Positions 14,353 through 36,587 of a DNA stretch of 64,000 nucleotides are shown here, piece by piece. Origin of the DNA: Nitratireductor sp. B36. GTDB lineage: Bacteria > Pseudomonadota > Alphaproteobacteria > Rhizobiales > Rhizobiaceae. The stretch is from assembly GCF_020833685.1 (NCBI RefSeq), contig NZ_JACKZY010000001.1, positions 942,578-1,006,577 of the forward strand, written 5' to 3'. The translations under genes were made by a program, and so were the position numbers. The notes beneath the pieces are model-generated. The model made no database searches, was not told the origin of the DNA, and saw only the letters and a list, made by a program, of their open reading frames with translations. Position 1 is the stretch's first letter. Each line of letters begins with the position of its first letter.

Positions 14353-14524
14353 GGTGCGCCTCGCCCTTTTGCCGCAGAAGCGACGTAAACCCGGCTAAGA
14401 ATACCACGCAAGCGATTGAGCGTCGCGTTTCGGGGGGTACCACTTATGGTCAGTGGGCCAGCATTTGGCTGAATTCCGGGTCGAGCCAGGGCGATGTTAC
14501 CCTGCCTGCCGGGAGGTAGCTGCA

Positions 14525-15379
14525 GTGCCGTTCACCCCAGTAAAAGCGCCTCATCTGACACGCAGGCGTGCACTCGTTGGCGGTGCAGCCGCTTTAAGCG
14601 CGTCACTCGTTCCCCTGTTGAGGCCTGTCTCATCACGCGCCGAGGATCAGTTCCTTACCGAAGATGATAGATTGAATATGGAGACCTTGCGGGTTTCCTT
14701 CGACGAGGATTTCTCCACGCTGGACGTTTCAGCCTGGGGGCCAGGAACACGCTGGATCGCACACACACCCTGGTCGGGAGATTTCGGCGGCGCGCGGTTC
14801 GCCAATCCCGGCGAGCGATCACCGTTCCGAATTATCGACGGCAAATTGCGCATTGAAGCCAAGCGCGACCCGGAAGGCGACTGGCAATCGGGATTGCTCG
14901 CCTCGGTGGATCCGGACGGGAACGGGTTTTCTCAACAATACGGCTATTTTGAAATGCGCGCGCAATTGCCGGAGGGGCCCGGTGTGTGGCCTGCCTTCTG
15001 GCTGATCGGCAAGGATCGCTCGAAGGCCACAGCCGAGATCGATATTTTCGAATTCTACGGGGACAAACCCGACGGTTACTCCTCGGTCGTCCATGTCTGG
15101 CACCGGGACGGGCGCCATTATTCGCGCTTTCATCGAAACGCGGTCTTCGTGGAGGCAAGGCCGGGTGCGTTTCACACCTATGGGGTGAAAGTGGATCCGG
15201 ACTGGATCCGCTTCTATTTCGACCGCGAATTCGTGTGGAAGACAGAGACCCAGCCGGAACACCGGCAGCCGCTTTATATTCTGCTCAATCTCGCCCTGGT
15301 GGACGGACCAACAAGGAACGCCACCCCAGACCCCTCGCACATGATCGTCGACTATGTGAGGGCCTATCGCCTCGACTGA
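14525..15379 (+). CDS. Secreted GH16 family endo-beta-glucanase-like hydrolase
   Basis: The protein has a twin-arginine style leader (TRRRALVGGAAALSASLVPLL) followed by a GH16 jelly-roll domain. The catalytic motif ExDxxE is present in AEIDIFEFYG, followed by typical GH16 segments (GYFEMRAQLPEGPGVWPAFWLIG; FHTYGVKVDPDWIRFYFD). In rhizobia related enzymes (ExoK, ExsH) trim the secreted polysaccharide. The start is the GTG at 14525 because GGGAGG stands eight bases upstream; an upstream GTG at 14453 lacks a ribosome site. It is 284 residues and complete. Confidence 0.87.
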   Translation: MPFTPVKAPHLTRRRALVGGAAALSASLVPLLRPVSSRAEDQFLTEDDRLNMETLRVSFDEDFSTLDVSAWGPGTRWIAHTPWSGDFGGARFANPGERSPFRIIDGKLRIEAKRDPEGDWQSGLLASVDPDGNGFSQQYGYFEMRAQLPEGPGVWPAFWLIGKDRSKATAEIDIFEFYGDKPDGYSSVVHVWHRDGRHYSRFHRNAVFVEARPGAFHTYGVKVDPDWIRFYFDREFVWKTETQPEHRQPLYILLNLALVDGPTRNATPDPSHMIVDYVRAYRLD

Positions 15380-15634: not shown

Positions 15635-17569
15635 ATGCATCACAAACAGCAACGAGCTGAACGATCCGGTTTTGACAGAAGCGGCAGTGTCGCACAGATT
15701 GCAGCGCGGTGCGCCTACGAGCGCGATGCGACAGTGCACGATAGCGTTGCCAGGATCGCGCGCGCCAGACCGGATGCGATCGCCATCACATTCGATGGCG
15801 TGGAGCTGACGTATGGCGCGTTCGAGCATGCGGCAACGAAACTTGCCGCCCGTCTCATCTCCATGGGTGTGCGCAAGGGGGACATTGTCGGCCTTCTTCT
15901 GCCCCGTGCCGCAAAAACGCTGATCGCCAAGCTGGCGATCCTCAAGGCGGGGGCAGCCTATGCGCCATTCGACCCGGCCTATCCGGTTCATCACCTTTCC
16001 TACATGATCAGGGACAGCGCACCCCGCGCGCTCATGATCGATCAGGAAAGCGCTTCGCTTGCCGCCAGTCTGCCGGTAGCGAGAGACTGCCTTGTCGATG
16101 CAGACAAGGCGCTTGCGGCACCCACAGGCAACGGGCTGCAAGAAGCTTTTCCCGAAGTGGGCGGCGGGGATGCGGCCTATGTGATGTACACGTCGGGTTC
16201 GACCGGACGCCCGAAAGGTGTCGTGGTACCACATCGCGGCATTCAGCGGCTTGTTCGCGATCAGAATTTTGTCGAATTTCGCTCTGACGACGTCGTGCTG
16301 CATACGGCGACGATCTCCTTCGACGCAGCCACGTTCGAGATCTGGGGAGCGCTTTTGAACGGTGCGCGGCTTGTGGGCATCGGCGACCGCACGCTTTCCA
16401 TGCAACGCATTGCCAATACGATTGACGAAGAGCGCGTCTCGGTGATGCTGCTCACCACCGGGCTTTTCAACCTCCTGGTCGATCATCCGAGCGGAGAGCT
16501 TGCCTCGCTGCGTCATGTCTTGTTCGGAGGGGAAGTAGCCTCGGCAGACCGTGCGCGGCGGTTCCTCGCAGCTCATCCCGAATGCCGCCTGACCAATGCC
16601 TATGGACCGACGGAAGTAACCGTAATCGCATCGACCTTCGATGTGCCGTCCGACTTTCGCGATGACACATTGCCGATTGGCCATTCCATCGCACACGGCC
16701 AGATTCACATTCTGGATGACGATCGCGCCGAGCTCCCACCGGGCCAGGAAGGCCAGCTTGCGGTTTCCGGCGACGGGCTCGCCATCGGTTATCTGAACCG
16801 GCCGGAGCTGACGCAGGAGCGCTTCGTCACGATCACCGCGAGGAATGGCGAGAGCCTGCGCTGCTATCTGACCGGCGACATGGCGGTGATGGATCCTGAC
16901 GGGCTTCTGCATTTTCGCGGGCGGCGGGACCGGCAGGTGAAAATCGACGGCAAGCGCATAGAGTTGGATGAAATCGAAAACGCGCTGCGTCGCGACGAGG
17001 CGCTCGCCGACGCGGTCGTGCAGTGCCACCAAGCCGGCAGCGCACGGCGGATGGTCGCCTATCTGCGCCCACACTCCATGGGCGGCCTCGACGATATCAC
17101 CTTCGCGGCAGGGGTGCTGAGGCGCCTGAAAGGGGTTCTTCCCGCTCACATGGTCCCTGGACGTGCGATCGTGTTGCAGAAGTTTCCGCTCAACCGTGCC
17201 GGCAAGGTTGACCGCTCTCGCCTGCCGGCCCCAACCGAAGCCCCGGCGGCAACGACGATAACAGAAGGGATAGAGGGCATCATCGCGCGGCACTGGCGCA
17301 GGGTGCTCGGCACCGACGCGGGCGGACTGGATCAGAATTTCTTCGATCTGGGCGGAACGTCGATGCAGCTCATGCGCGTCCACGCAGCGCTGGAACAGGA
17401 GCTTGGCCGCAGCATCGACGTGGTGAGCGTGTTCGAGCATCCGAAAATCCGCAGTCTGGCGCGCTTTCTTGAGAAAGCGCCAGATGGTGATCAACCGGGC
17501 TTTGAAGCCCGCAGTCGCGCTGCGCGACAGAAGCGGGTCATGTCGCAGTTTCGTCGGAGCAGACAATGA
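15635..17569 (+). CDS. NRPS initiation module: adenylation domain plus peptidyl carrier
   Basis: This 644-residue protein loads the first amino acid. The adenylation domain (about residues 35-540) has A3 YTSGSTGRPKG near 185, A4 ATISFDAATFEIWG, A5 NAYGPTE, A7 YLTGD, A8 RDRQVKIDGKRIELDEIE and A10 NRAGKVD. The carrier domain follows, with phosphopantetheine serine 576 in GGTSM. There is no condensation domain, so it is a starter module. My by-eye specificity code, aligned to GrsA, is D-A-F-L-L-G-A-V-I-K, which fits an aliphatic residue, uncertainly. The stop overlaps the next start (ATGA). The ATG at 15635 has a modest GGGGCG upstream. Confidence 0.9.
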   Translation: MHHKQQRAERSGFDRSGSVAQIAARCAYERDATVHDSVARIARARPDAIAITFDGVELTYGAFEHAATKLAARLISMGVRKGDIVGLLLPRAAKTLIAKLAILKAGAAYAPFDPAYPVHHLSYMIRDSAPRALMIDQESASLAASLPVARDCLVDADKALAAPTGNGLQEAFPEVGGGDAAYVMYTSGSTGRPKGVVVPHRGIQRLVRDQNFVEFRSDDVVLHTATISFDAATFEIWGALLNGARLVGIGDRTLSMQRIANTIDEERVSVMLLTTGLFNLLVDHPSGELASLRHVLFGGEVASADRARRFLAAHPECRLTNAYGPTEVTVIASTFDVPSDFRDDTLPIGHSIAHGQIHILDDDRAELPPGQEGQLAVSGDGLAIGYLNRPELTQERFVTITARNGESLRCYLTGDMAVMDPDGLLHFRGRRDRQVKIDGKRIELDEIENALRRDEALADAVVQCHQAGSARRMVAYLRPHSMGGLDDITFAAGVLRRLKGVLPAHMVPGRAIVLQKFPLNRAGKVDRSRLPAPTEAPAATTITEGIEGIIARHWRRVLGTDAGGLDQNFFDLGGTSMQLMRVHAALEQELGRSIDVVSVFEHPKIRSLARFLEKAPDGDQPGFEARSRAARQKRVMSQFRRSRQ

Positions 17570-20500
17570 GCGCAGCGATTGCGGTAGAGCCTGAAACGGG
17601 ACTGGATGAGGGCATCGGCAGCGTTGCGATCATCGGCATGGCCGGGCGGTTTCCCGGTGCGCCATCGGTCGATGCGCTGTGGCAGATGGTGCGCGGGGGG
17701 CGTCACGCCTTCCGCACCTTTGCAGCCGATGAAATCGAGGACGCCTATGACGAGGCGACGCGCGCCTCGCCGGACTATGTGCCCTCCCGCCCCTATTTGG
17801 ACGATGTCGGCATGTTCGATGCGGAATTCTTCGGCATGTATCCGCGCGAGGCGGCGGTGCTCGATCCGCAGTTCCGGCTGTTTCTGGAAATCTGCTGGGA
17901 AGCGCTGGAAAGTGCGGGCTGCGATCCCTTCGGTGCGAAACAGTCGATCGGCGTCTTCGCCGGCTCGGCGATGAGCACCTATCTCATCAACAACATCCTG
18001 TCGGATCGACAAAAGGCCGAAGCCTTCACCTCCGGCTATCAAGTCGACATGTTCAACGAACTGGTGGGCGCGATCAACGACACGCTGGCGACGCGCGTGG
18101 CCTATAAGCTCGACCTGAAAGGGCCGGCCTTCACCATCCAGTCGGCCTGCTCCACATCGCTCCTGGCGGTGACGCAGGCCTGCCAGAACCTTTTGACCTA
18201 TGGTTGCGACATGGCGCTGGCGGGCGGTGTGTCGATCTCGGTGCCGCAGAAGCGTGGCTACATCCACATGGAAGGCGGCATGGTTTCGCCGGACGGTTTC
18301 TGCCGGCCCTTCGATGCGCAGGCAGGCGGCACGGTTTTCGGCAGCGGCGGCGGCGTGGTGCTTCTGAAACGGCTCGAAGACGCCATCGACGGTGGCGATA
18401 CGATCCATGCCGTCATTCGCGGCTATGGCGTCAACAATGACGGCGCGGACAAGGTGGGCTACACCGCACCCAGCGTTTCTGGACAGGCCGACGCGATTGC
18501 GGCAGCCCTTGCCAGTGCCGGCATCGACCCTGATAGCATCGGTTATGTGGAGTGCCACGGCACTGCCACGCCGCTCGGCGATCCCATCGAGTTCAACGGC
18601 CTGATGAACGCTTTTGGCGGCGATGGCGCTGAAGGCCACTGCGCGCTCGGGTCCGTGAAGGGGAATATCGGCCATCTGGACGCCGCTGCAGGCGTCACCG
18701 GTCTCATCAAGGCGGCACTCGTGGTGCGCGACGGCGAGATCCCGCCGGTGGCGAATTTCGTATCGCCCAACCCGCATATGGCACTGGAAAACAGTCCGTT
18801 CCGCATTCCAACGGAGCGCGTAGCGTGGGAAGCGGCGGGCGCAAAGCGCCGCGCCGGCGTCAGCTCGTTCGGGGTGGGCGGCACCAATGCACATGTGGTG
18901 CTCGAACAGGCGCCCGACCGAGACGGTCTTTCGGAGACATCGCCCGACCGCCCACTCATTCTCCCGCTTTCGGCGCGAAACGAGGCGGCGCTCGCCGCGA
19001 TGCGCAAGAATTTGGCCGAAGCTCTGCGCGAGAGCACAGAGCCGCTCGCCACCGTGGCGCACACGTTGCAGCGGGGGCGGCACGCTTTTTCGCACCGAAC
19101 GGCGATTATTGCGCGCACGCGCGACGAGGCGATTGCGGCACTTGAAGCAGAACGCCCGATCAGCGGCGAGGCAGCACAGGATGCCCCGCCCGTGGTCTTC
19201 ATGTTTCCCGGACAGGGCGCGCAGCATGTGGGCATGGGCGGCGCGCTTTATGGGACCGAACCGGTCTTTGCCGAATGGATCGACAAAGGCGCTGATCTTC
19301 TTGAGCCTCTGATTGGCCGTGACATTCGCGATTTCATCCGGCTGCCCGATGGCGACGCGCCGCAAGAGCTTTCCGAAGCACTGCGCGACACGCAAATCGC
19401 CCAGCCCGCACTCTTTCTCGTCGAATATGCGACGGCAAAACTCTGGATGAGCCGTGGCCTCATGCCCGAAGCCATGATCGGCCACAGCGTGGGTGAATTC
19501 GTTGCCGCCACACTTTCGGGCACGATGCGCTTCGAGGATGCGCTCGGGCTGGTCGCAGCACGCGGGCGGCTGATGCAGAGCCAGCCCAGGGGAGCCATGG
19601 TTTCCGTGCGGTCGGATGCGGAAACGGTCGAAGCGCATCTTTGCGACGGGGTGGAGATCGCAGCCCTCAATGCACCGAAGCTCAGCGTCATCTCCGGCAC
19701 GTTCGAGGCGATGGACGAGACATGCGCAAAGCTGGATGCCGCAGGCATCGCCTATAGCCGGTTGCACACCTCCCACGCCTTCCATTCGGCCATGATGGAC
19801 GAGGCTGCCAGGGCGCTCGAAGAAGAGACGGCAAAGGTCGAATACGGTCCATCCACCATTCCCTATATTTCCTGTGTGAGCGGCGACTGGCAGACGGACG
19901 CGCAGGGCGCTTCGCCCGCATACTGGGCACGCCATTGCCGCGATGCGGTGCGCTTTGCCGACGGCATCAAGACCGTTGCGCGCGAGCGCAGGCCCGTTTT
20001 CATCGAGGTCGGCCCCGGCCGCACGCTTTCTGTTTTCACCGCGCAGACGCTCAAGCGCGATGACATCGCCGCCATTATCCAGTCCCTGCCCGAACACGAC
20101 CGCGCATCCTTGGGTGAGGACGTTTTCGCCGAAGCCCATGCGCGGTCGTGGATCGCCGGCTGCGGGCTCGACTGGCCGGCCCTGCCAGAGACGGCGCGGC
20201 GGAAAATCCCGCTGCCGACCTATCCCTTCCAGCGCCAGATGCACTGGATCGACGCACCGACGCCGGAGAACCGGGCGCATGCGGCACTTGCCCATACGCT
20301 GCCCGATACACCGGTAAAAACAATCCCGACAGACGGAATGAGCCCAATGACCACCGCACCTGCAACAACCGACCGGCGTGCCACCCTGGAACGCGCCCTG
20401 ACCGCCCTGCTCTCAGACCTTTCAGGCGAAGACCTGCCAGGCGATGCAGCCGGAGCGACCTTTCTGGAGCTTGGCTACGATTCCCTCTTCATCGGCCAAT

Positions 20501-23500
20501 TCGCGCAGAAGGTGGAGAAGGAATACAGGATCAAGCTCTCCTTCCGCGAGCTGCTCGGCAACATTCCGACCATTCATGATTTGGCGCGACACCTCGACAC
20601 CGAACTGCCGGCAGATACCGTGCAGGCGGTGTCTCCCTCTCCGGTGGCTCAGGTCCCCCCCACGCCGGACGTCGCGTCTGCTGCGCCATCTTCAGTGGCG
20701 AATGGAACTCCACAGGCACCTCAAGGGCTCGAGGCGCTTTTCCAGTCCCAGTTGCAGATGGCGCAGCAACTTTTCGCACAGCAGATGCAGACCATTCAGT
20801 CGCTTGGCGGCTCGATCCCGACGGCAGCGCCTTCAGCCACGCCGCAGCCTGCACCGGCCCCAGCCGCTGCGCCCGCGCCTGTGCCGGACACGAGCGGTGA
20901 CGAGAGTGAGATCGGTGGCGGCCGCATCCGCGTGTACAAGCCCGGCGCGCAGGCCGGCGAAAAGGCGCTCACGGAGGAAAAACGCGCCTTCATCAACGAT
21001 CTGGTTGCCCGCTATTGCGAGAAGAATGCCCGCTCCAAAGCGTTCACGCAGGAACACCGGCCGCATCTGGCCGATCCACGCGCGGCCTCCGGGTTTCGCA
21101 TCGACTGGAAGGAACTGGTCTTCCCTGTCGTCTCCGACCGCTCGAAGGGATCGCGCATCTGGGACATAGACGGCAATGAATATATCGATCTCGTGAACGG
21201 CATGGGGCAAACCGCCTTCGGTCATGCCCCCGATTTCGTGGTCGAGGCGATCCGCGCGCAGACCGACAGAGGTTTTGCCATTGGCCCGCAGACACCGCTC
21301 GCCGGCGAAGTCGCGGACCTGATCAGCGAATTGACCGGGCACAGCCGCGTCACCTTCTGCAACACCGGATCGGAAGCCGTGATGGCGGCCATGCGGGTTG
21401 CCCGCACCGTGACGGGCCGCGACCGCATCGTCGTTTTCGGCAATGATTATCACGGCCAGTTCGACGAGGTTCTGGTCAAGGGCCGCAGCCGTGCGGGGCA
21501 GCATCGTACCCTGCCCATTGCCGCCGGCATCCCCGCAGATTCCCTGTCGAACATCACGGTCCTGCCCTATGGCGCGCCTGAAAGCCTCGACTGGATCCGC
21601 GCCAATGCGGACGAGCTTGCGGCCGTCATCATCGAGCCGGTGCAGAGCCGCCATCCGGAGCTGCAACCGGTCGAATTCGTGCGTGCGCTGCGCGCGCTCG
21701 CAACGGAACGCGATTTCGCTCTGGTGTTCGACGAGGTGGTGACGGGCTTCCGCGTCGACCCCGGTGGCATGCAGGCCGTGTGGGGCATACGCGGCGACCT
21801 CGCCACCTATGGCAAGGTGCTGGGCGGCGGAATGCCGATCGGCGTTCTGGCCGGTGACAGCCGGTATATGGATGCGCTCGATGGCGGTCATTGGGATTAT
21901 GGCGATGACAGCGTGCCAATGGTCGCGCCGACTTTCTTTGCAGGCACATTCGTGCGCCATCCTGTCGTGCTGGCGGCGACACGCGCCGTGCTCGAGCACA
22001 TCAAGGGTGAAGGCCGTGCGCTCTATGACCGGGTGGCCACCCGCACGGAAACGCTTGTCACGGAGCTGAACGGCCAGCTTTCGGATCGCGGGATTGCGAC
22101 GCAGATCCATGGCTACAAGAGCTGGTTCGTGACAGATTTTGGCAATGCCGACCCGCTCGGCGCGCTGTTTTATCCCTATGCGCGGATGCAGGGCCTGCAT
22201 GTCCAGGACGGCTATCCCTGTTTCCTGACGACCGCGCATTCGGAAGAAGACTTTTCGCGCATTGCAACGGTCTTCGGCGAGACGCTCGATGCGCTTCAAG
22301 GTGCCGGCATTCTAGTCGCCGATGACGGACGGGCGGAGCGCCCCACCGCAAGGCCCCTGCAGGAGACGCCGCAACAGGCACCGCTGACCGAGGCGCAGAA
22401 GGAAATCTGGCTTGCAGCGCAGGCCGGCGACGAAGCCTCCTGCTCCTTCAACGAATCCTTCAATCTCACGCTCGATGGCGCGCTGGATGAAGCCGCATTC
22501 CGCAAAGCGTTTGATCTTATCGTTGCGCGACACAATGCGCTTCACATCCGTTTTGCGCGGACGGGCAAGCATTTCGACGTGACGCCCGATTTCCGCATCG
22601 ACATGCCGTTGACGGAGGTTTCTGATGACGAGGCGCTTGCACAAATCATTGAGCGCGAGGCGCGGACCCCGTTCGATCTCGTCAATGGTCCGCTGGCGCG
22701 CGCAGAACTCGTTCGGCTTTCAAACGACCGGCACGTGCTTGTCTTCACGGCCCATCATATCGTTTGTGATGGCTGGTCGGCGAATGTGCTGATCGAAGAG
22801 CTTGCAACAGCCTATAGAGCGCTCGCGCAGGGAGACACGCCTGACCTGCCCCCGGCACTGGCTTTCTCGAGCTATGCGCAGGCGCGCGCTAGCCGGACGG
22901 AGGACGATGAAGAGACGGAGCGGTTCTGGCTTTCGCAATTCGAGACCGTACCGGACCTGCCGGACATGCCGACCGACCGGCCGCGCCCAGAACAGCGCAG
23001 CTTTGCTGGCGGCACCGTGACCGCGCATATCGACAGCGATGTCTACAGGCGGCTGAAGAAGGCCGGCGCGAAGAACGGCGCGACGCTGTTTTCGACCCTG
23101 CTCGCAGCCATGCAGGTGATGATCGCGCGGCTTTCGGGCAGCAACGACATCGTGATCGCCGTGCCTTCGGCAGGGCAGAGCCTGCTTGATGACGAAACGC
23201 TGGTCGGCCATTGCGTCAATCTTCTGCCCCTGCGGCAGGCGCTTGATGAAGAACGGTCCTTCGCCGAGCATTTGAAGGACACGCAGCAACTGGTTCTTCA
23301 GGCTTTCGAGCATCAGGACTTTACCTATGGAACGCTGGTGCGGAAGCTTGGCCTGAAGCGCGATCCAAGCCGCCTTCCCCTGACCGAAATCCAGTTCAAC
23401 CTGGAGCGGGTGACGAAGGGAATGGATTTTGGCGGGCTTGCCGCCGAGGTCACGCCCAACCCCAAGGCGTTTTCGAATTTCGACATGTTCGCCAACATGA

Positions 23501-25551: not shown

Positions 25552-28355
25552 GCGACATTGAACACCGCGTGATGGCCTCCGGTTCGGACGACATCATTGG
25601 AGAATTTCCCTGCACGCAGACGCAGATGCGTTGCTGGTTCCTGGATCGTCTGAATCCGGGAAACCCCGCGCTCAACGTCGCCGTGCGGTGGGAGATTCGC
25701 GGGAACTTCAGGACCGAGAGCATTGAGGAGGCTTTCCGGCAGATCATCCAGCGACACGAGGTCCTGCGAACCCGTTTTGTGGAGAAGGATGGGCAACCCA
25801 CGCAGCAGGTGGTGCGCGGGGTCGAGTTCCGCATGCCGGTCATCGACCTGCGTCACGTGCCGGAAGACCAGCGCGAGGCGCGCATCCAGTCGATCAGCAG
25901 GGAGACGGCGGCAGCGCCGTTCGACCTCGGCCAGCCGGGGCTCTTCCGCGTCACGCTGTTGATGGTGGAGAACAGGCGCGGCTTCATTCTCATCACCGCG
26001 CATCAGAGCTGTTTCGACGGCTGGTCGATCCGCGTTCTGGGGCGCGAAGTGGGAGAACTCGCAGCGGCCATCGACGCGAAACGCGCGCCGCACCTGCCGG
26101 AGCTGGCGCTGCAATATGGCGACTTCGCGCTGTGGCAGGACGAATACCGGAACAGCTATGGTTTCGAAGCGGAGAAGACCTATTGGCGCGAACAGTTGCG
26201 CGACGCGCCCTATTTCGAGATCAGGCCGGACCGCCCGCGCGGGCGCGTAAAAACCAGCCGCGGGGAGATCCTTTCCGCCGTGCTCCCGCTGGAATTCGGC
26301 GAGCGGATCGAGGCGGCGGCGCGGGCGCATCACGTATCGCTGTTCAGCTATGGCGTGGCGGTCATCAGTGCTGCACTTCACCACTATTCGGGCGAACGTG
26401 AAGTGCTGTTCGGGACGCAGATCGCGGGGCGCGAGGATGTGGATCTGGAGAATCTCATCGGCGTGTTCATCAACAATCTCGTTCTGCGTTTCGATATCGG
26501 TGAGGAGTTGAGCTTCGCCGATCACCTCTCAAGGGTCAGCGCAACGGTGGGGGCGGCCCTCAACCACCAGAAAATGCCGTTCAACAATCTCGTCGAACTG
26601 ATCAACCCGGTGCGGGACCCTTCCCGCAATCCACTTGTTTCGGTGAACTTCAACCAGCAAAAGGCCTTTCTGGAAGACACTCGCTATGGCGATTTCGAGC
26701 TGATCAGCGCCCCGTCGCAATCGCCGGGCGTGATCTATGATCTCAACTTCATCATGATCGGCCGGCCGACCGGCTGGCGCATGTCGGTGGAATACAACAC
26801 CGATCTGTTCGACGAAGCGACCGCGCGGGAGCTGCTCGATCTGTGGCAGAAGGCCTATGCCTTCGCGCTTGACGATCCGCAGGCGCAGATTGGCGCGATG
26901 GCGGGGCCGGTTCGTGCCGGCACATTGCCGAAGGAAGCGCAGCCGAAACCGGCATCGCGGCTGGAAGCGCTGCTTCTCGCGCAACCGGATGTCGCCGATG
27001 TCGCGGTCCGGCGAGACGGACCGGTCGGCCGGTCTCACGCCTTCGTGGTGCCGACTGCAGGGCTCATGGTGCCGCTCGAGACCCTTCCTGCACAACTGAA
27101 CGCCTATCTGGCAGAACGGCTGCCAGAGGAAGAGGTACCCGCCGCAATCAGCGTTCTTCTTTCCCTGCCGAGACGGGCGGACGGCGCAGTGGAGTTGCCG
27201 GCAATGCCGCCACCCACGGCCAATGTCCCTGCCCCGGTTCCAGCGAAAGACCCGGCCCCGCCGGCGGACAGGCAGGCGGAGCTTGGCCGGATATGGGCGC
27301 GTGTGCTTGACGTGCCGCGGGTGGATGCAGACGACGACTTCTTTGCGCTGGGCGGTCATTCGCTTCTGGCTCTCAGAATGTTCTCCGGCGTGCGCGAGGC
27401 CTTCGGCATCCAGCCTGACCTCGCTCTCCTGTTCAGGGAGCCGACGCTCTCGGGCTTCGCGTCCGCGATCTTCGGCACACAGCCTGCCCCTGTCGCAGAA
27501 CCGGCGGAAGAACTGGAGACCCCGTCACCGGTTACCGTCGACTGGGAGACAACGACCTACCGGCAGGGCAGCGGAGACTGCGCGGTCTATACGCTCAACC
27601 ATCCCTTCCTCTATTACCGGATGGCCAAGTCGCTTCCCGGTCATGCCTCCGTCGTCAATCTTCACATGTTCAATGCGCGGATCGATGAACAAACCGAAGG
27701 CTTCTCGCTGGAAAAGATCGCCGGCGATGCGGTGGACGCGATGCAGCTTGGCGACACACCAAAAACCGTCGCGCTGGTGGGGCTTTGCGTCAACGGCATC
27801 CTGGCCGCCGAGATGACCCGGCAATTGCGGGCCAGGGGGCATGATGTGAGCTTCGTCGCGCTGATCGACAGCTGGGCACCCGGTTATGTGCGTTCGCAGC
27901 CGGCCCTGACCCGCTGGCGCTGGAACACCGAGAAACGGGCAAAACGTCTCGTCTATTTCACCGGTAAGCTTTTACGCGGGCGTATGTCGCTGATCACCTA
28001 TCTGAAGGAGTTCAGCCTTTCGCTGAAGCTTGTCGAGCGCTTCGCGCCCGCCCGTGCGATGAATGAGGAAGAGGAAACCAACGAAGCGGTCACCCAGTAT
28101 CTCGTTCGTGCGGCCCGGCGTTACAGTCCGCGCACGCTTTCCGGTGAAACCGTGCTCTTCTTCCGCAGTCAGGCCACACACCGGCGCGCAAGGCGGCTTC
28201 TATTCGGGTGGCGTGGTTTCGTGCCGGATGAATCGCCGGTTTTCGATCTCAGCGGCTGGCACGAGGATTCGTTGAGTGACAGGGGCGTCGACAAACTTTC
28301 ATCCGTGCTTGGCGAGCGTCTTGAACTGGGAGGCTCCGCTGACCGCCGTTCCTAA
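25548..28355 (+). CDS. Terminal NRPS module: C - adenylation remnant - PCP - Cys thioesterase
   Basis: The 935-residue protein starts on an ATGA overlap. The condensation domain (about 15-445) carries HQSCFDG at 152-158, so the second, normally catalytic, His is Gln153. Residues about 471-557 resemble only the small C-terminal subdomain of an adenylation domain (RLEALLLAQPDVADVAVR to LAERLPEEEVPAAISVL), and the A10 lysine motif has become RADGAVELP; the large ATP-binding part is absent. A carrier follows (Ser605 in GGHSL). The thioesterase (about 645-925) has GLCVNG at 745-750, so Cys747 replaces the usual serine; Asp774 and His905 are candidate triad partners. The carrier cannot be loaded in cis. 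It may receive its residue in trans, or act only in release. Confidence 0.9.
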   Translation: MSDIEHRVMASGSDDIIGEFPCTQTQMRCWFLDRLNPGNPALNVAVRWEIRGNFRTESIEEAFRQIIQRHEVLRTRFVEKDGQPTQQVVRGVEFRMPVIDLRHVPEDQREARIQSISRETAAAPFDLGQPGLFRVTLLMVENRRGFILITAHQSCFDGWSIRVLGREVGELAAAIDAKRAPHLPELALQYGDFALWQDEYRNSYGFEAEKTYWREQLRDAPYFEIRPDRPRGRVKTSRGEILSAVLPLEFGERIEAAARAHHVSLFSYGVAVISAALHHYSGEREVLFGTQIAGREDVDLENLIGVFINNLVLRFDIGEELSFADHLSRVSATVGAALNHQKMPFNNLVELINPVRDPSRNPLVSVNFNQQKAFLEDTRYGDFELISAPSQSPGVIYDLNFIMIGRPTGWRMSVEYNTDLFDEATARELLDLWQKAYAFALDDPQAQIGAMAGPVRAGTLPKEAQPKPASRLEALLLAQPDVADVAVRRDGPVGRSHAFVVPTAGLMVPLETLPAQLNAYLAERLPEEEVPAAISVLLSLPRRADGAVELPAMPPPTANVPAPVPAKDPAPPADRQAELGRIWARVLDVPRVDADDDFFALGGHSLLALRMFSGVREAFGIQPDLALLFREPTLSGFASAIFGTQPAPVAEPAEELETPSPVTVDWETTTYRQGSGDCAVYTLNHPFLYYRMAKSLPGHASVVNLHMFNARIDEQTEGFSLEKIAGDAVDAMQLGDTPKTVALVGLCVNGILAAEMTRQLRARGHDVSFVALIDSWAPGYVRSQPALTRWRWNTEKRAKRLVYFTGKLLRGRMSLITYLKEFSLSLKLVERFAPARAMNEEEETNEAVTQYLVRAARRYSPRTLSGETVLFFRSQATHRRARRLLFGWRGFVPDESPVFDLSGWHEDSLSDRGVDKLSSVLGERLELGGSADRRS

Positions 28356-28356
28356 A

Positions 28357-29955
28357 ATGCATGGAAAGCAGGCGAAGGTGGCGGCGCCCCTGCGCATCGG
28401 CATCATGCGCGAGGCAGGACAGCCTTTTGAAAACTGGGAGCTTCAACTCATCGAGCGGCTGCTTGCGGACCGCCGTTTCCGGCTTGTCGCGTTTCTCGAT
28501 ACTTCGAAACCGGCTGGCGCAAAGGCCAACATGCTCACCAGAATGGTGGCACGATTTGACGGTGCGCTATTTGCGCGTCAGTCGGGCTATAGCGCAAAGC
28601 GGTTCGAGCGCGCGCGAAAAGCCATACTCAATATCCCGCTGGCCAATGCTGTCGCGAATGGAGACCGGCACGGACCGCAACTCGACATCATCCTTCGCCA
28701 CTGCAATGCAGATTTGCCTGAGGCAATTCTTAATGCTCTCCCGCTCGGCGTCTGGTCGCTCAGCCATGTTTTCACGCAGTCGGGCTCGGCGAGCTGGGAC
28801 GGCATCGCCGATATGGCGGCCGGTGCTCCGACAAGCCATCTCTCGCTTTTTCTGGAAACGGCACGGCACCCGGAAAGACGCGTCATCGCGCAGGCCGAAT
28901 TCAATGTGAAATTCAGTGCGGCGCGCAATGCCGCCTTCATCAAGGAAAAGTCGGTTCTGCTTCTGATGCGTGAACTCAGACGCATCGCGGACACCAGCAA
29001 ACTGCCAAAGCCGCTCAGAGCCCCCGATGCCGTCCAGGCGCTCAGGCCGCCCGGCATTTTCAGGACAGGCCGCTATGCAGCGGCGCTCACAAAAAACATA
29101 GCGCAGCGGGCGCTCAAGACCATGCGCCGCGCCTCCCATCAGGAAACCGCCGTCTGGACGCTTTTCAGCGGGCGCGGTGCCATTGACGATTTCGATCCCA
29201 GCGAAGCCATGGAGATCCCACCGACGGACACGGCCATCAAGGCCGATCCCTTCCTTTTTCACCATGAGGGGCGGACTTATCTGTTCTACGAGAACTATGG
29301 ACTGGGCGATACCAAAGCGCACATCGCTGTGGGCGAAATCACCCGCAGCGGCTTCGAGCCCATCGGCATAGCGCTGGGCGGCAGCGAGCACCTCTCGTTT
29401 CCCTTCGTTTTCCGCGTGGGGGACGAGATTTTCCTCATGCCGGAGACGCATCAGAGGAAGCGCATCGAAATCTGGCGCGCGGTGAGCTTTCCGTTGATAT
29501 GGGAGCCCTATTCTCGAGCCCTCGAGGGATGGTCAACCGCCGACAGCACGCTTTTCAAACATCGCGGTCAGTGGTGGCTTTTCACCAATCTTTCAGAGCA
29601 TCACGCGTTCGAGGATCACTGCTCCGCGCTCTACGCGTTCCAGGTCGACGGACCGGAATTGAAACGGATCGTTCCCCATCGGCGGAATCCCATTGTTGTG
29701 GGCAGCGCCACGGCACGCAATGCCGGCCGCATCTTCTCACGCCATCGCCGGCTCTACCGGCCCGCGCAGTACAATGCGCACGGCATCTATGGCTACGGTC
29801 TCAACATCATGGAGATCGAGCAACTGGACCTGGATGATTATCGGGAAACATGTGTGCGCCGCATCCTGCCCGATTTCAAACCGGGCCTGACCGGCTGCCA
29901 TCATTTCGATGCGAGCGGCTCACGCTATATTCTGGATGCGCGGCTCAACGCCTGA
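28357..29955 (+). CDS. Two-domain protein: formyltransferase-like N-terminus and GH43-like beta-propeller
   Basis: A protein of 532 residues. The N-terminal half (from LRIGIMREAG) looks like the formyltransferase fold: a Rossmann-like start, LDIILRHCNADLPEAILNALPLGVWSLSHV near the middle, and a weak THL-type segment. The C-terminal half (about 265-525) has the repeated blade pattern of GH43/GINT1-like propellers (ADPFLFHHEGRTYLFYENY, LSFPFVFRVGDEIFLMPET, STADSTLFKHRGQWWLFTN). Proteins joining these domains occur in glycan and glycolipid loci; their chemistry is poorly known. The ATG at 28357 lies just after the NRPS stop; a GTG at 28276 would overlap the NRPS gene. It is probably co-transcribed with the synthetase. 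Confidence 0.72.
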   Translation: MHGKQAKVAAPLRIGIMREAGQPFENWELQLIERLLADRRFRLVAFLDTSKPAGAKANMLTRMVARFDGALFARQSGYSAKRFERARKAILNIPLANAVANGDRHGPQLDIILRHCNADLPEAILNALPLGVWSLSHVFTQSGSASWDGIADMAAGAPTSHLSLFLETARHPERRVIAQAEFNVKFSAARNAAFIKEKSVLLLMRELRRIADTSKLPKPLRAPDAVQALRPPGIFRTGRYAAALTKNIAQRALKTMRRASHQETAVWTLFSGRGAIDDFDPSEAMEIPPTDTAIKADPFLFHHEGRTYLFYENYGLGDTKAHIAVGEITRSGFEPIGIALGGSEHLSFPFVFRVGDEIFLMPETHQRKRIEIWRAVSFPLIWEPYSRALEGWSTADSTLFKHRGQWWLFTNLSEHHAFEDHCSALYAFQVDGPELKRIVPHRRNPIVVGSATARNAGRIFSRHRRLYRPAQYNAHGIYGYGLNIMEIEQLDLDDYRETCVRRILPDFKPGLTGCHHFDASGSRYILDARLNA

Positions 29956-30731
29956 TGACGTTCGATCCGGGCTGCGGGCCGCCAGGCCCCGCGCCTTTCT
30001 CGCCGGGCAGGCTGAAGCGTGCCGCCGCGATAGTTCAGCGAAACGGCGTTGCCTGCCGTCAGCGCCGCGACCGCGCCGACATAGCCGCGCGGCAGGGTCA
30101 GATTCAAAAACTGCCACTGGGCCGGCGCATCGTCCACGCCATCGAGCCGCAGCAGCCGCGGCTCACCGACGGGATCGATGGTGACATCAAAGGATTCAAG
30201 CGGCAGCGAAAGCCCCGCACCATGTGCCTTCACGAACGCTTCCTTGCGTGTCCAGCAACGGAAAAACGCGCCAAGATACTCCTGCACCGGGACCGCCCTG
30301 AGCGCTTCATTCTCAGCCCCGGAGAAAAAGTGCTCTGCGAGATTTTCCCGGAACGGAAGGACGCGCTCTATGTCTATGCCGAGCTGATAGCGATCGGAAA
30401 CGGCGAGAACCGCCGTCGGGCCGCTGTGACTGAGATTGAAATGAAGCGGCGGTTCACCGCGCCCGGCAAGCCGGGGTTTGCCAAAGGCATTGTATGAGAA
30501 AGCTAGCCGGTTTGGCGCAACGCCGAGATAGGATCCGAGGATCGCCCTCAGCCGGCCCCGCCCGGCGATGAAACGCAGCCGGTGCTGCTCATGCACGAAG
30601 CGAGAGGCACGTGCGAACTCAGCCTCGCTGAGTGCCGAGACGAGCGGTGGAAGCGCCTCCAGGGGTACATCGAGGGTCCACTGCCAGACATCGATCGTGC
30701 CGGCGCCTATGCTCACGGGTTTAAGCTGCAT
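29925..30731 (-). CDS. Sfp-type 4'-phosphopantetheinyl transferase
   Basis: The 268-residue protein has the Sfp/Gsp pattern: LGIDIERV with the metal-binding acidic pair, then FFRCWTRKEAFVKAHGAGLSLPLESFDV. It attaches phosphopantetheine from CoA to the serines of carrier domains, here presumably those at residues 576, 973, 2593 and 605 of the three synthetase proteins. The ATG at 30731 overlaps the end of the upstream aminotransferase gene by 11 bases. Its 3' end overlaps the convergent propeller gene by 31 bases on the opposite strand. Confidence 0.92.
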   Translation of the reverse strand: MQLKPVSIGAGTIDVWQWTLDVPLEALPPLVSALSEAEFARASRFVHEQHRLRFIAGRGRLRAILGSYLGVAPNRLAFSYNAFGKPRLAGRGEPPLHFNLSHSGPTAVLAVSDRYQLGIDIERVLPFRENLAEHFFSGAENEALRAVPVQEYLGAFFRCWTRKEAFVKAHGAGLSLPLESFDVTIDPVGEPRLLRLDGVDDAPAQWQFLNLTLPRGYVGAVAALTAGNAVSLNYRGGTLQPARRERRGAWRPAARIERHQALSRASRI

Positions 30732-31899
30732 AGGACAACCGCCTTTCCGGCGCTTTCCCCCCGACCATGCGGCGGGCAAGATAGGCCATAAGTGCCGTCG
30801 GATAGTTTTCGCCAAGGCTGATGCGGCAAGTGCGTTTCAGAATATCCAGCGAGCGGGCACACATGTCGGGCCCATACTCCACATCGGCCGAAGCCCAGCC
30901 ATAGGGGTTCATGGCCGGATGGAATGCCCGCTTCTCAAGGATCGGAGTCCAGTGGGTACAGACGTGGCGACTTGAATCGAAAACACGGTAGACGCCGCGC
31001 CTGTTCCGGGCGGCAAAGGCCTTGGCCTCGCCTTCCGTCTCGAACAGAACATGGAGACCGACGGCGTTTTGCGGGTCGTTGTGCGGTCCCAGCCGGAAGG
31101 CATCGCTGCCCGACAGGATGTGCGACATGACCTGATGCCGCCTGCGCATGCGGCGCAGCATGGGATCGAGCTTGGCTAGCTGCACATTGAGCATCGCCCC
31201 CTGGATCTGGCTTGCCTTGAAGTTCACGCCGAAAAAACTCGGCTCGTTGTAATTGTCGAGATGTCCGCGAAAGAGTTCACCCACATCATGATACATGCGC
31301 GCGCGGGCGAAATACCGGTCGCTCTGGGAGGCCACCGCACCACCCTCGCCGATATTCATGTTCTTGAACTGGTTGAAGCTGAAAGCGCCAATGTCGCCAA
31401 TCGTGCCGACACGCTGGCCCCGGTAACGCACGCCCACCGCCTGGCAGGCATCCTCGATCACCGTGAGGCCGTTCTGACGGGCGAGCGTCGTGATCGCCTC
31501 CATGTCGCAGACCATGTTGGCCATGTGCACCGGCAGGATCGCACGGGTGCGCGGCGTGATCTTGCGCGCAATGTCTTCGGGATCCATGGTCAGCGTCTCG
31601 TCGATATCGACGATGACCGGAACAGCCCCCACGGCGAGCACGGAAGCGGCCGTCGCAATCCATGTATAGGCAGGCACAAGCACCTCGTCGCCGGGCCCGA
31701 CGCCGGAGGCAGCCAATGCACTGATCAACGCGCCTGTGCCGCTGCTGACTGTCAACACATGTTTGACGCCGAACTTTTCGGAAAATGCCTTTTCGAACCG
31801 GTCGAGCGGCCCCTCGCCGGGCCCGCCATAGCGCGCAAGACGCCCCGAAGCGATGACCCCGCCGATGGCCAGCCACTCACGCAAACCAACCTTTGCCAT
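30721..31899 (-). CDS. DegT/DnrJ/EryC1/StrS family PLP aminotransferase
   Basis: The 392-residue protein has the fold-type I layout of sugar aminotransferases: SSGTGALISALAASGVGPGDEVLVPAYTW, IEDACQAVG, and the PLP lysine in FSFNQFKNMNIGEGG. The family usually aminates nucleotide keto-sugars, and some members act on inositol or cyclitol ketones. The ATG at 31899 (MAKVGL) is preferred over an upstream TTG. It is coupled to the PPTase gene and divergent from the GMC oxidoreductase, so it belongs to the biosynthetic locus. It could serve the NRPS-PKS product or the polysaccharide; sequence alone does not say. Confidence 0.85.
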   Translation of the reverse strand: MAKVGLREWLAIGGVIASGRLARYGGPGEGPLDRFEKAFSEKFGVKHVLTVSSGTGALISALAASGVGPGDEVLVPAYTWIATAASVLAVGAVPVIVDIDETLTMDPEDIARKITPRTRAILPVHMANMVCDMEAITTLARQNGLTVIEDACQAVGVRYRGQRVGTIGDIGAFSFNQFKNMNIGEGGAVASQSDRYFARARMYHDVGELFRGHLDNYNEPSFFGVNFKASQIQGAMLNVQLAKLDPMLRRMRRRHQVMSHILSGSDAFRLGPHNDPQNAVGLHVLFETEGEAKAFAARNRRGVYRVFDSSRHVCTHWTPILEKRAFHPAMNPYGWASADVEYGPDMCARSLDILKRTCRISLGENYPTALMAYLARRMVGGKAPERRLSYAA

Positions 31900-32188
31900 G
31901 GTGTTTTCCCGCTTGGCCGACGGGCGAGCCGTGCCCGTGGCGCCCCATTTATTCTTCAAGCGTATGCCCGGGCCATGGGGTTTTCAAATAATCCAATAAT
32001 GTAGCGCCACGCCGTCTTGCCCTACCCGATGATGGCCAAAACCCTTAGCAAGCTGCCCCTTCTATGCAATTTGGATGAGTTCGGCCGGGCGCAGGATTTT
32101 GATAGCCTTTGCAGGGGCTTTACGACGCAGCGAACCCATTTTCTTTCGCAACTGACGTGCTGCTCTGGTGGCCCGCTCAGGGGGCAGT

Positions 32189-33844
32189 GTGTCCATTCTA
32201 GACTTGCGCAGCGTGCCATCCGGCACACGGTTCGAGGCCGATATCGCCCTTGTTGGGGCGGGACCGGCCGGACTGACGCTAGCGCGGGAGTTTGCCGATA
32301 CGCGTCTCAAGATACTTCTGGTCGAAAGCGGCGGCGTGGAGTTTGATTCCGAGATCCAGCTTCTCAATCGAGTGGAGAATATCGGCGAACCTCGTGCGCG
32401 TGACGCCATGTCGCTTCAGCGAGGCTATACGGGCGATCTCGCCTGGCTCAACGACATTCCCCCATTCGAACTGCGAAACCGGATGGTGGGCGGCAGCACA
32501 CACACCTGGGTCGGCAAATGCGCCGCATTCGACGAGATCGACTTCGATGCGCGCCAATGGGTGCCTGACTCCGGCTGGCCACTGCAACGGCGCGATCTGG
32601 CGGATGTGCTAGGTCGGGCAGCAAACCTGCTCAATCTTGGTCCCAATATCTACGACAAAGCACTCTACACCCGGCTGAAAACGCCGCCGGCAGACATCGA
32701 TCTAAATGACAATCTGCTGCGCACTTTCTTCTGGCAATTCAGCCATAAGCCCAAGAGCAGCGAGCCATTGCGGTTTTCGGAGCTCGCAGCAAAACTTTCA
32801 ACCGACAACATCGATATTCTCACACATGCGACCGTTATCCGGATCGGATTGTGTGAAAGCGGGAGGAAGGTGGAGACACTCCATGTCAAAAGCCTCTCCG
32901 GGGTGGACGCCGTGATACGGGCGCCGGTGATCGTGCTGTGTGGTGGCGGCATTGAAAATGCGCGCATACTCCTGGCATCCACGAATGTGGCCACACAGGG
33001 CATCGGCAACGATCATGACTGCGTGGGGCGATATCTGGCCGACCATCCGCGAACCGTGATCGCACGGTTCGGGAAGGAGCCCCTGCAGGACGTTGCCGAG
33101 CATTTCGGCTTTTACGGGCTCAGTCACAACCGCCGCACGCATTTTTATCTGCGTGGGCTGGCGCTTAGCCCGCGCCTGCAGGCGCGCGAGGGGCTGCTCA
33201 ACTGCGCCACCTACCCGGTACAGGTGTTGGCGCCGAACGACCCTTGGCTGGCACTCAAGCGATTTTACTCCGGCAACCGGCGGTTCCGGCTCGACGACCT
33301 GAGGACCGCGCTTGCGGCCCCCGGCGGTCTGGCAGCGGGGCTGCACCGCCGGCTCATCATGAAACGGGGCCTGCCCCGCCAGCTCAGCGAACTGCGCTTC
33401 GACGCCATGGTCGAACAGAGGCCCGACCGCGAAAGCCGCGTGACACTCTCTTCGGTGCGGGACCGTCTGGGTGTACCGCTGGCGCGCGTGAACTGGAAGA
33501 TCGGCTGGGCGGAAGCTGCAAGCCTCGCACGGCTCGCCGAACTCATTTCGGCCGAGTTCTGGCGGGTCGGCCTGCCACAGCCCAAACTCGAACCCTGGGT
33601 CCTGGACGAGGATTTCAGGAACGCTCCTTTCAGTGACATGGCCCACCCGGCCTGCACCACGCGCATGGGTGCAAACCCGAAGACAAGCGTTGTCGACCCG
33701 AACGCCAAGGTTCACAGTGTCGATGGACTTTTTGTGGCCGGCAGTTCGGTTTTCCCCACGCCCGGCCACGCCAACCCGACACTGATGATCATCGCCATGA
33801 CGCTGCGCCTTGCCGATCATCTCAAGAAGCGCCTTCTCAAGTGA
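32189..33844 (+). CDS. GMC family FAD-dependent oxidoreductase
   Basis: The protein of about 551 residues has an N-terminal ADP-binding fold (DIALVGAGPAGLTLAREFA, then LLVESGG), the middle GMC segment with GGGIENARILLAS, and the C-terminal GMC block HPACTTRMG...GLFVAGSSVFPTPGHANPTLMIIAMTLRLADHL. Such enzymes oxidise alcohols, sugars or polyols in the cytoplasm or periplasm; no signal peptide is seen. I chose GTG 32189 because AGGGGG lies just upstream; GTG 32168 is an alternative. It is divergent from the DegT gene and is the likely tailoring oxidase of the NRPS-PKS locus or an enzyme of sugar metabolism. Confidence 0.84.
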   Translation: MSILDLRSVPSGTRFEADIALVGAGPAGLTLAREFADTRLKILLVESGGVEFDSEIQLLNRVENIGEPRARDAMSLQRGYTGDLAWLNDIPPFELRNRMVGGSTHTWVGKCAAFDEIDFDARQWVPDSGWPLQRRDLADVLGRAANLLNLGPNIYDKALYTRLKTPPADIDLNDNLLRTFFWQFSHKPKSSEPLRFSELAAKLSTDNIDILTHATVIRIGLCESGRKVETLHVKSLSGVDAVIRAPVIVLCGGGIENARILLASTNVATQGIGNDHDCVGRYLADHPRTVIARFGKEPLQDVAEHFGFYGLSHNRRTHFYLRGLALSPRLQAREGLLNCATYPVQVLAPNDPWLALKRFYSGNRRFRLDDLRTALAAPGGLAAGLHRRLIMKRGLPRQLSELRFDAMVEQRPDRESRVTLSSVRDRLGVPLARVNWKIGWAEAASLARLAELISAEFWRVGLPQPKLEPWVLDEDFRNAPFSDMAHPACTTRMGANPKTSVVDPNAKVHSVDGLFVAGSSVFPTPGHANPTLMIIAMTLRLADHLKKRLLK

Positions 33845-33856: not shown

Positions 33857-35353
33857 TTATCGGCCGGATTTGAGCCAGCCTGTCCATCTCCAGCTTGCAT
33901 AGAGAACGCCCAGATAAATCAATGCCCCCACCAGAACCTGCATCGCCATTTGCGAATAGGCCGGCAGGTGAGCCTCGGTGGGCCAGTGAGCAAGCGACGA
34001 GACGCCGACGAACATCACCGCGGCGGCCAGCATGATAAGACCGCTATTGGCAGAGATCCCCATCCAGTCGAGTTTTCCGTAGCGGACTTGAAACCAGACC
34101 GACAGCGCGCCGGCGAAAGCAGCCGCCACACATTGCCCGAGGGCTGCATACACAAGTCCGAAGGGCGCGAGAGCCACGATCATCAGGATCGAAGCAAAGC
34201 TGATGAAGAGTGACAATGGCCAAAGCCGTTTGACCTCCCCGCGAACCGCCAATAACGGTTCCGTCACATATCCCTGAAACATCAGAAGCTGGCGGATCGC
34301 GAGAATTTTGACCACCAACGCAACCGGCGCCCAGGCTGCTCCAAGAGCAATGTCCACCAGATTGCCGGCAACGAGAACCAGACCGAGATAAACGGGCGCG
34401 GCGATGGCGAAAAGAACAGGCAGGAAAAAGCTGCCGGCACGGGTGATCGGATCAACTGTCGTGGCAGCAGCGCTGCGGCTGTTTGCGCGGCGGAACACCA
34501 CCCAGGCAAGCAATCTTGCCGGTTCGCCAACCAATTCTGAGAAGGCGGCCACAATCCTTTCCGCGGCCCGGTAGTAACCGGCGTCCGCGAGGCCGAGCAA
34601 ACCACCGACAACAAGCGTGCCCGAATAGGATCGGGCGAACACGATGATCCGCACACTAAGAATATAGCGCGCAAAGTGAATCACCTCGGCGAACACCGCA
34701 CGGCTCGGGATTTTCGGCGTGATCCAGCCAATCACCCAGACTCCGCCGAAAACACCCAGGATATGCGTGGCCAGCCGTCCAACCACGAGTGCGGCGATAT
34801 TCCACCCGGCCCACAGGCCAAACAATGTTATTGCAAGGCCCACCGCTTCCGCGAGAATGCGGATTATAGCCTGCATGTTGAGTAGGCTTCGGTGCACCAA
34901 CATCCCGTCATAAACGGCATTAACCGCAGCGGGTATGAACCAGAGCGCAAAGAGCGCGAACAGCCATGCCTGCCAGGCTGGGAACCAGAAGACGCCCACA
35001 AAGAGCCCCAGGAGCAGCCCAGCGGCAGTGAAGCCAAAGCCGCTTACAAGCGCGATCGCAGTGAGTTGCGGCAGTTGCTCCTCACCATGATCGGCGCGCA
35101 TGATGAACTCCGCCCATCCCCCTTCACTCACCACCACAAAGAGAAAGGCGATGGCTGAAACGAATGCGAAAAAGCCGAATTCTGCTGGCGAAAGAACACG
35201 GGCAGCGGCCACAAAGGCGATCAGTTGCGCGACCTGTGAAAAAAGCCGCGCCACCATGACCCACACGCCCCCCCCAAGGAGAGACGAGACAGACAATCCG
35301 AAAAATCCGCCCGGTTGTGTATCATTTTGCGGTGGTTTGTGATCCGCTTTCAC
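33857..35353 (-). CDS. Polysaccharide flippase (Wzx/MATE-type, oligosaccharide translocase)
   Basis: This 498-residue membrane protein has about twelve to fourteen hydrophobic segments and the Polysacc_synt pattern: LGGGVWVMVARLFSQVAQLIAFVAAARVLSPAEFGFFAFV near the N-terminus. It probably flips lipid-linked repeat units across the inner membrane for polymerisation. The start is the GTG at 35353, with GGGGAAGG upstream; the frame remains open to 35590 but the extra residues are low-complexity and basic. It ends 12 bases from the convergent GMC gene. Confidence 0.85.
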   Translation of the reverse strand: MKADHKPPQNDTQPGGFFGLSVSSLLGGGVWVMVARLFSQVAQLIAFVAAARVLSPAEFGFFAFVSAIAFLFVVVSEGGWAEFIMRADHGEEQLPQLTAIALVSGFGFTAAGLLLGLFVGVFWFPAWQAWLFALFALWFIPAAVNAVYDGMLVHRSLLNMQAIIRILAEAVGLAITLFGLWAGWNIAALVVGRLATHILGVFGGVWVIGWITPKIPSRAVFAEVIHFARYILSVRIIVFARSYSGTLVVGGLLGLADAGYYRAAERIVAAFSELVGEPARLLAWVVFRRANSRSAAATTVDPITRAGSFFLPVLFAIAAPVYLGLVLVAGNLVDIALGAAWAPVALVVKILAIRQLLMFQGYVTEPLLAVRGEVKRLWPLSLFISFASILMIVALAPFGLVYAALGQCVAAAFAGALSVWFQVRYGKLDWMGISANSGLIMLAAAVMFVGVSSLAHWPTEAHLPAYSQMAMQVLVGALIYLGVLYASWRWTGWLKSGR

Positions 35354-36476: not shown

Positions 36477-36587
36477 TATAAGGCCCCGCAAAGCCCGTGA
36501 TATAACTCCATCGGGGTATTGGGCAGGGCCATTTAGGTGCAGTCCACCGCACAATCGAACCATGCCTACCCCTGCAGCGCAGCCGGA

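Follow-up and report, generated by a model that had tools for sequence, protein, structure and literature searches.

Why should genes for a peptide assembly line stand in the midst of a polysaccharide locus? The question is raised by a stretch of 64,000 nucleotides from Nitratireductor sp. B36 (the window), in which three genes encoding a hybrid nonribosomal peptide synthetase-polyketide synthase (NRPS-PKS), here named nrpA, nrpB and nrpC, lie between two groups of exopolysaccharide (EPS) genes. An initial annotation had offered two answers, either that the NRPS-PKS had been inserted into an EPS cluster or that the peptide-ketide it makes is linked to the polymer or regulated together with it. 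Comparisons with related genomes show that the NRPS-PKS and EPS genes make up one conserved Wzx/Wzy-type EPS locus, of which the NRPS-PKS is an integral part. This bears out the second answer as far as the genes are concerned; attachment of the product to the polymer is a prediction, the most economical reading, at about even odds. In its specific form, in which the NRPS-PKS is integral to the EPS locus and a sugar in the EPS repeat unit receives a diamino-acyl-glycine by transfer, we give this reading a probability of about 0.52.

Window proteins were assigned with Pfam, supplemented for selected genes by NCBIfam, PHROGs and PDB comparisons, and were searched against the 35–60 kb surrounding nrpC in 18 other genomes. 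The order pyrT-wzy-GH16-nrpA-nrpB-nrpC-propeller-PPTase-degT-gmc-wzx-exoY-gt4a-gt2-wzc-wza-gt4b, in which PPTase denotes a phosphopantetheinyl transferase, is kept in 14 of these: six Nitratireductor, three Chelativorans, one Pseudaminobacter, two Sinorhizobium, one Rhizobium and one Rhizobium relative. The NRPS and EPS genes are linked but reordered in G283, Tianweitania (G205) and Consotaella (G060), and in G009 the left half is found as far as nrpC, where the contig ends. The G326 locus was read in part in this comparison; its contig is the same as that of L107 in the 80-locus set described below. In G008 (L062-L063) nrpB and the propeller gene, and also rpoB, are split between frames, and sequencing errors are likely.

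Within a sample of the genus, nrpB is present in nine of ten genomes, fragmented in one of the nine, and is missing from G007. There the entire block from pyrT to gt4b is absent, and panC-panB-h347 adjoins crp-luxR-bmp-abc; the comparison of relatives with and without the NRPS genes, which the initial annotation had called for, thus finds the NRPS and EPS genes missing together. The panB and panC genes were considered as locus members, supplying pantothenate for the carriers, and were left out since both persist in G007 without the locus. Genes for LuxR- and Crp-type regulators border the locus in several genera, yet G007 still has them at its empty site, and their membership is therefore uncertain. 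In a wider family sample of 394 genomes, NrpC matches past 1e-60 occur in 20, comprising 17 orthologues (at least 38% identity) and three general condensation domains (30–34%). A wzy of at least 50% identity is found in 15 genomes of this sample, all of them among the 17 that have an NrpC orthologue.

The proteins of the locus have also diverged together. Across 15 genomes (a set without G008, G009, G060 and G205), pairwise protein distances for nrpB correlate with those for wzy (r = 0.95), gmc (0.94) and wzc (0.93), as against 0.74 for rpoB. Partial correlations given rpoB are 0.88 for wzy, 0.89 for gmc and 0.85 for wzc, and just 0.38 for exoY; wza, gt4b and luxR, each missing from one genome, were omitted. 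A check of GC content across the joints, likewise proposed beforehand, does find the NRPS genes GC-richer (63.1% in the window, compared with 58.2% for the left and 59.3% for the right EPS genes), but the offset recurs in every genome compared. It amounts to 0.5–4.9 points against the left EPS genes in 19 of 19 genomes and to 0.4–3.8 points against the right EPS genes in all 18 that have them. The offset is a property of the gene class in all these genomes, and is therefore no mark of insertion.

The linkage extends well beyond the Rhizobiaceae; in Rhodobacterales, Methylobacterium and others the NRPS and EPS genes stay together, though in a different arrangement. A scan of a collection of 84,980 species returned 141 NrpC relatives, and linkage was counted for the best 80 of the 141. 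These come from Rhizobiaceae of many genera, Methylobacterium, Ancylobacter, Chelatococcus, Acuticoccus, a metagenome-assembled genome (MAG) of the Acetobacteraceae, and the Rhodobacterales Pseudooceanicola, Maritimibacter, Jannaschia, Cereibacter and Oceaniglobus; antisense open reading frames (ORFs) in GC-rich distant loci were excluded. In 65 of the 80 loci, one or more of the window's EPS families lie within ~10 kb of nrpC, and in 60 of these there is a family other than GH16. For 12 of the 15 remaining loci, gt4b is found on the same contig at 16–42 kb, and L103 is linked through its longer contig (G009). L102 and L141 are on contigs too short to judge (9.1 and 8.5 kb). Of 22 loci in which few EPS genes came into view, 20 have gt4b on the nrpC contig. 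The evidence is thin in a few cases: GH16 is the sole link in L116 and L142 and wzc in L175, and the gt4b of L174 is 41% identical and 42 kb away. In total, linkage of nrpC with EPS-type genes is found in 78 of 80 loci, and the NRPS block is not, as had been considered, always on its own. Chance adjacency can be ruled out when this figure is set against the whole 4.19 Mb genome, which holds three ExoY-type and three Wzz-type matches, one of each at the locus. The same gene company appears in the distributed annotation of plasmids of Rhizobium sp. SL42 and Loktanella salsilacus, and 19 of 72,556 plasmid records, including Rhizobium, Sinorhizobium and Loktanella plasmids, cover at least 80% of NrpC.

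By a non-overlapping count over the same 80 loci, nrpA is present in 73, nrpB in 78, the PPTase gene in 71, the propeller gene in 56, degT in 48 and gmc in 44. Since nrpA, nrpB and the PPTase gene are near-constant, the core consists of NrpABC, the PPTase and the EPS genes. The propeller, degT and gmc characterise the rhizobial clade, though not all of its loci have them; several distant loci have, in their stead, a gene for an alpha/beta hydrolase after NrpC or the PPTase. In the Rhodobacterales loci L169 (14024-15811) and L241 (1461-3272) an X-Pro dipeptidyl-peptidase (S15)/CocE-type hydrolase adjoins the PPTase, and could possibly serve as a peptide trimmer or a transferase.

The predicted chain follows from the domains of NrpA and NrpB. 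NrpB has the order ketosynthase-acyltransferase-acyl carrier protein-aminotransferase-condensation-adenylation-peptidyl carrier protein (KS-AT-ACP-AMT-C-A-PCP) with intact catalytic residues, as in MycA/McyE-type enzymes, and in the window its elongation module has both its own A domain and the condensation motif HHxxxDG. Of 95 rows, 87 have the A-domain code DILQLGMIW and every one fits DILQ.G..W; this count, like those over 94 and 97 rows, includes twice the 14 of the 18 synteny genomes that share an identical NrpC end with a locus of the 80-locus set. In the available text of the sources concerned, DILQLGMIWK is printed for glycine-activating domains (PMC12283262), DILQLGVI is assigned to glycine (PMC5466765), and a Trp-Gln pair closes the glycine pocket of DhbF (PMC11253843). 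From these codes, the NrpB A domain is predicted to be of glycine type in every relative read. The aminotransferase domain keeps its Lys in 94 of 94 rows, and among solved structures it comes closest to the mycosubtilin MycA domain (4e-119). The AT motif is HAFH in all 94 rows, which we take to be malonyl-type. No ketoreductase (KR), dehydratase (DH) or enoylreductase (ER) is among the 12 Pfam families of NrpB; the β-ketoacyl chain would therefore be transaminated.

The NrpA codes differ from species to species and are mostly of hydrophobic type (DAFLLGAVM, DALFLGAVF and DAFWLGGTF, for example), which we presume to be Leu-, Ile- or Val-like; 16 of 97 rows were dropped from this count for a DILQ code, the best-hit ORF being NrpB or NrpC. 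Even within Nitratireductor the NrpA code varies (DAFLLGAVI, DAFLLGVCM, DAFLFGAVI), and the NrpB code is nearly fixed. The chain to be expected is H2N-CHR-CH(NH2)-CH2-CO-Gly, a β,γ-diamino-acyl-glycine.

NrpC departs from the pattern of an elongation module with its own A domain and HHxxxDG, as found in MycA/McyE-type enzymes. The A domain is absent in 80 of 81 rows, and the first two positions of the condensation motif are HQ in 75 rows, HH in five and HR in one. With the A domain lost and the second His of the condensation motif usually lost, NrpC probably passes the chain on without extending it. The thioesterase (TE) has a G-x-C motif, with Cys as the nucleophile, in 80 of the 81 rows, the remaining row being truncated. 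A catalytic-type TE His aligns in the rhizobial clade and in Ancylobacter and Chelatococcus, but not in most Rhodobacterales rows. The model of NrpC (pLDDT 91.8) has a type I TE fold, with the TEs of EntF, NocB, Pks13 and SulM among the close fold matches. A special kinship to Pks13 was considered and set aside: Foldseek ranks Pks13 first, VIA-align places EntF and NocB above it, and Pks13 serves as a precedent only. The one row with an A domain is L179, from the Acetobacteraceae MAG, where a complete C-A(glycine-type)-PCP-TE(Cys) module (2215-6177) stands beside an ExoY-like gene. It matches NrpB better than NrpC, and may be a related single module and not an NrpC orthologue. Perhaps it is a forerunner of the NrpB/NrpC end.

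These features suggest the following course of events. NrpA would activate an amino acid, probably hydrophobic to judge from its code, onto its own carrier. NrpB would then add one malonate, convert the β-keto group to a β-amine by transamination and add glycine, as its domains, its AT motif, its MycA-like aminotransferase and its code indicate. The chain would move to the PCP of NrpC, whose Cys thioesterase is the candidate for placing the diamino-acyl-glycine on a sugar in the lipid-linked repeat unit. For the clade of the window, an amine produced jointly by GMC oxidase and KdnA-like aminotransferase may be the acceptor. Flipping of the decorated unit would fall to Wzx, its polymerisation to Wzy and its export to Wzc and Wza, and the decoration is predicted to be cationic.

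The case for a sugar amine comes from two tailoring genes. The nearest PDB entry to the DegT protein is 5k8b, the 8-amino-Kdo transaminase (1.1e-56), followed by perosamine and 2-deoxy-scyllo-inosose transaminases. For the GMC protein, the closest matches in the PDB are glucose and fructose dehydrogenases; its relatives there further include pyranose oxidases and a paromomycin-pathway oxidase. Together they could form an oxidise-then-aminate pair acting on a sugar hydroxyl, giving the amine that the thioesterase would acylate.

The comparison also took in eight sister EPS loci, whose wzy is more distant. Four genomes of genus g63 have the EPS backbone and the propeller and no nrpB or nrpC; in G218, the one of the four annotated in more detail, genes of the asparagine-synthase, AMP-ligase and NAD-synthase families lie between wza and wzy (L200, 11701-17587, on G218:C11). 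The other four have neither propeller nor ligase matches. This EPS backbone may accordingly accept any of several amide-forming cassettes, the NRPS being one, a suggestion drawn from about five loci and not from a survey. The propeller protein (model pLDDT 86.4), considered as an NRPS tailoring enzyme, is placed on the EPS side, given that it occurs in four of the eight NRPS-free loci.

The alternative that survives best, and that we nevertheless judge unlikely, is that the NRPS-PKS makes a free small molecule, such as a signal, a metallophore or a matrix-held antimicrobial, merely co-regulated and co-inherited with the EPS. The domain order resembles that of lines with free products (the MycA match) and LuxR and Crp regulators stand beside the locus, but the linkage to EPS genes in nearly all of the loci, kept where the order is reshuffled, argues for a closer tie, as do the sugar-type aminotransferase and oxidase genes that adjoin the NRPS genes. 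A thioesterase can hydrolyse or cyclise, and there are related EPS loci without an NRPS; among the block genes scanned with Pfam, however, there is neither an exporter family other than the EPS set nor a separate receptor family. It is improbable that the product serves to cap, prime or terminate the EPS chain, or to anchor it in the membrane, instead of forming a group on each repeat. Such a role has been proposed for RkpA-type PKSs, and there is precedent for type I PKSs inside capsule clusters in the available portions of PMC3908369 and PMC3557214, but a lipid anchor is unlikely here, given that NrpB lacks any reductive domain family and that a short, polar, diamino chain is predicted. A recent insertion of the NRPS-PKS that split an older EPS locus, the first answer of the initial annotation, would fit the slightly higher GC content of the NRPS genes and can be all but discarded, being contradicted by an order common to several genera, a GC offset identical in direction in all 19 genomes, the co-divergence of NRPS and EPS proteins and their joint absence from G007.

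The window contains a Wzx/Wzy-dependent EPS set recognised by Pfam, with priming transferase, flippase, Wzz/Wzc co-polymerase and Wza-type export protein. The arrangement originally described, an NRPS-PKS between groups of EPS genes, is upheld by the Pfam assignments, with corrections to the strand of the PPTase and DegT genes, the start of the propeller gene and the basis for the polymerase. For the last of these, position and a topology with 10 hydrophobic stretches agree with a polymerase, and no family match was found in Pfam, NCBIfam or PHROGs. Both joints, nrpA/nrpB and nrpB/nrpC, are 4-base overlaps (ATGA), and 255 bases separate the end of the GH16 gene from the start of nrpA. The propeller ORF begins at 28276, and as homology with relatives mostly begins near residue 38, its start is probably the ATG at 28357. 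The true start of the PPTase possibly lies near 30734; a forward-strand ORF at 29850, in the same region, has no Pfam match. A 347-residue protein has no match in PHROGs. A second cluster of KS, AT, C and A domains is present in the same genome outside the window, near the start of contig 2 (G000:C2:230-27457).

Features of the EPS and NRPS-PKS locus, with window coordinates
Feature	Coordinates	Strand	Basis and remarks
LuxR-type and Crp-type regulators	9429..11488	-	Pfam
Polysaccharide pyruvyl transferase (pyrT)	11741..13081	-	Pfam
Putative Wzy polymerase	12943..14352	-	Topology and position only
GH16 glycanase	14453..15379	+	Pfam; co-oriented with nrpA
nrpA: A-PCP loading protein, code DAFLLGAVI	15635..17569	+	Pfam, code reading
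nrpB: KS-AT-ACP-aminotransferase (class III)-C-A (glycine-type code)-PCP	17566..25551	+	Pfam, motifs, code
nrpC: C (HQxxxDG)-A-domain remnant-PCP-thioesterase with Cys nucleophile	25548..28355	+	Pfam, motifs, model
Propeller protein (GINT1_N): formyltransferase-like domain and GH43/GH117-like propeller	28357..29955	+	Pfam, model, fold search
PPTase, Sfp/HetI-type	29925..30815 (ORF)	-	NCBIfam, PF01648
DegT aminotransferase	30721..31959	-	Pfam; PDB nearest, 8-amino-Kdo transaminase (KdnA)
GMC oxidoreductase, sugar-dehydrogenase/oxidase-like	32168..33844	+	Pfam, PDB
Wzx-type flippase	33857..35590	-	Pfam PF13440/PF01943
ExoY-like priming sugar transferase (Bac_transf)	35757..36563	-	Pfam PF02397
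Glycosyltransferase GT4 (gt4a)	36588..37940	-	Pfam
Glycosyltransferase GT2	37951..39000	-	Pfam; true start probably downstream of ORF start
Wzz/ATPase, ExoP/Wzc-like	38855..41122	-	Pfam PF02706 and ATPase, NCBIfam
Poly_export/SLBB protein, ExoF/Wza-like	41155..42546	-	Pfam PF02563/SLBB
Glycosyltransferase GT4 (gt4b)	42638..44005	+	Pfam

The usual view of assembly-line peptides is that they are free secondary metabolites, and of EPS decorations that they are acetyl, pyruvyl, succinyl or single amino-acid groups. Tentatively, and at slightly less than an even chance, we propose a new class of surface polymer across the Alphaproteobacteria, in which EPS repeat units carry a non-ribosomal β,γ-diamino-acyl-glycine with a constant glycine link and a lineage-variable first residue, the Cys thioesterase of a repurposed, A-less last NRPS module acting as the sugar acyltransferase. 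If this is true, genome mining may wrongly sort a common determinant of EPS among the secondary-metabolite clusters, and many bacteria that live with plants or in the sea may produce a matrix polymer of cationic or zwitterionic character, the carriers of the locus including Nitratireductor, Chelativorans, the Rhizobium tropici group, Ensifer/Sinorhizobium and marine Rhodobacterales. The variation of the first residue between close relatives suggests a diversified surface trait, and the locus would offer a model for a thioesterase that hands a peptide chain to a sugar. A search of the open-access literature, with subscription papers mostly and bioRxiv preprints wholly outside it, found no description of this locus; this agrees with the earlier statement that no such product had been described, and cannot prove absence. 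The NRPS/PKS terms looked for do not occur in the R. tropici/PRF 81 genome paper.

Several known systems share features with the locus. In the Dlt system an amino acid is loaded by an A domain together with a carrier protein and finishes on a surface polymer. The NCBIfam model of DltA picks up NrpA as an A domain, far below the cut-off, and no MBOAT family was found by Pfam among the window genes scanned; the present locus differs from Dlt in its multidomain NRPS-PKS, its longer predicted chain, its thioesterase and its Gram-negative Wzx/Wzy-type EPS. In the KdnA system and in the oxidase and aminotransferase pairs of aminoglycoside pathways, a sugar hydroxyl is oxidised and then transaminated. 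KdnA is the nearest solved relative of the DegT protein and a paromomycin-pathway oxidase is among the GMC relatives, whereas KdnB, the partner of KdnA, belongs to a different enzyme family from GMC. MycA, ItuA and McyE, of the mycosubtilin/iturin and microcystin lines, have the domain order KS-AT-ACP-AMT-C-A-PCP, the same as NrpB. They make free peptides, whereas here NrpA would provide an amino acid starter, the terminal module has no A domain and the setting is an EPS locus.

Pks13 is not known to lie in an EPS locus, and its product is a lipid made by a PKS only. Like NrpC it ends in a thioesterase, of close fold, and in the available text of PMC9210659 that domain releases the product onto polyols, preferably trehalose, and has a serine (S1533), not the Cys of NrpC; it is a precedent for transfer to a sugar and no proof of it. 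Parallels in genetic setting are the type I PKSs RkpA and WcbR, which occur in polysaccharide loci, those of rhizobia included, according to the available portions of PMC3908369 and PMC3557214. These are fatty-acid-type PKSs for lipid, with reductive domains that Pfam does not find in NrpB, whereas the locus described here encodes an NRPS-PKS that includes both an aminotransferase and a module for glycine.

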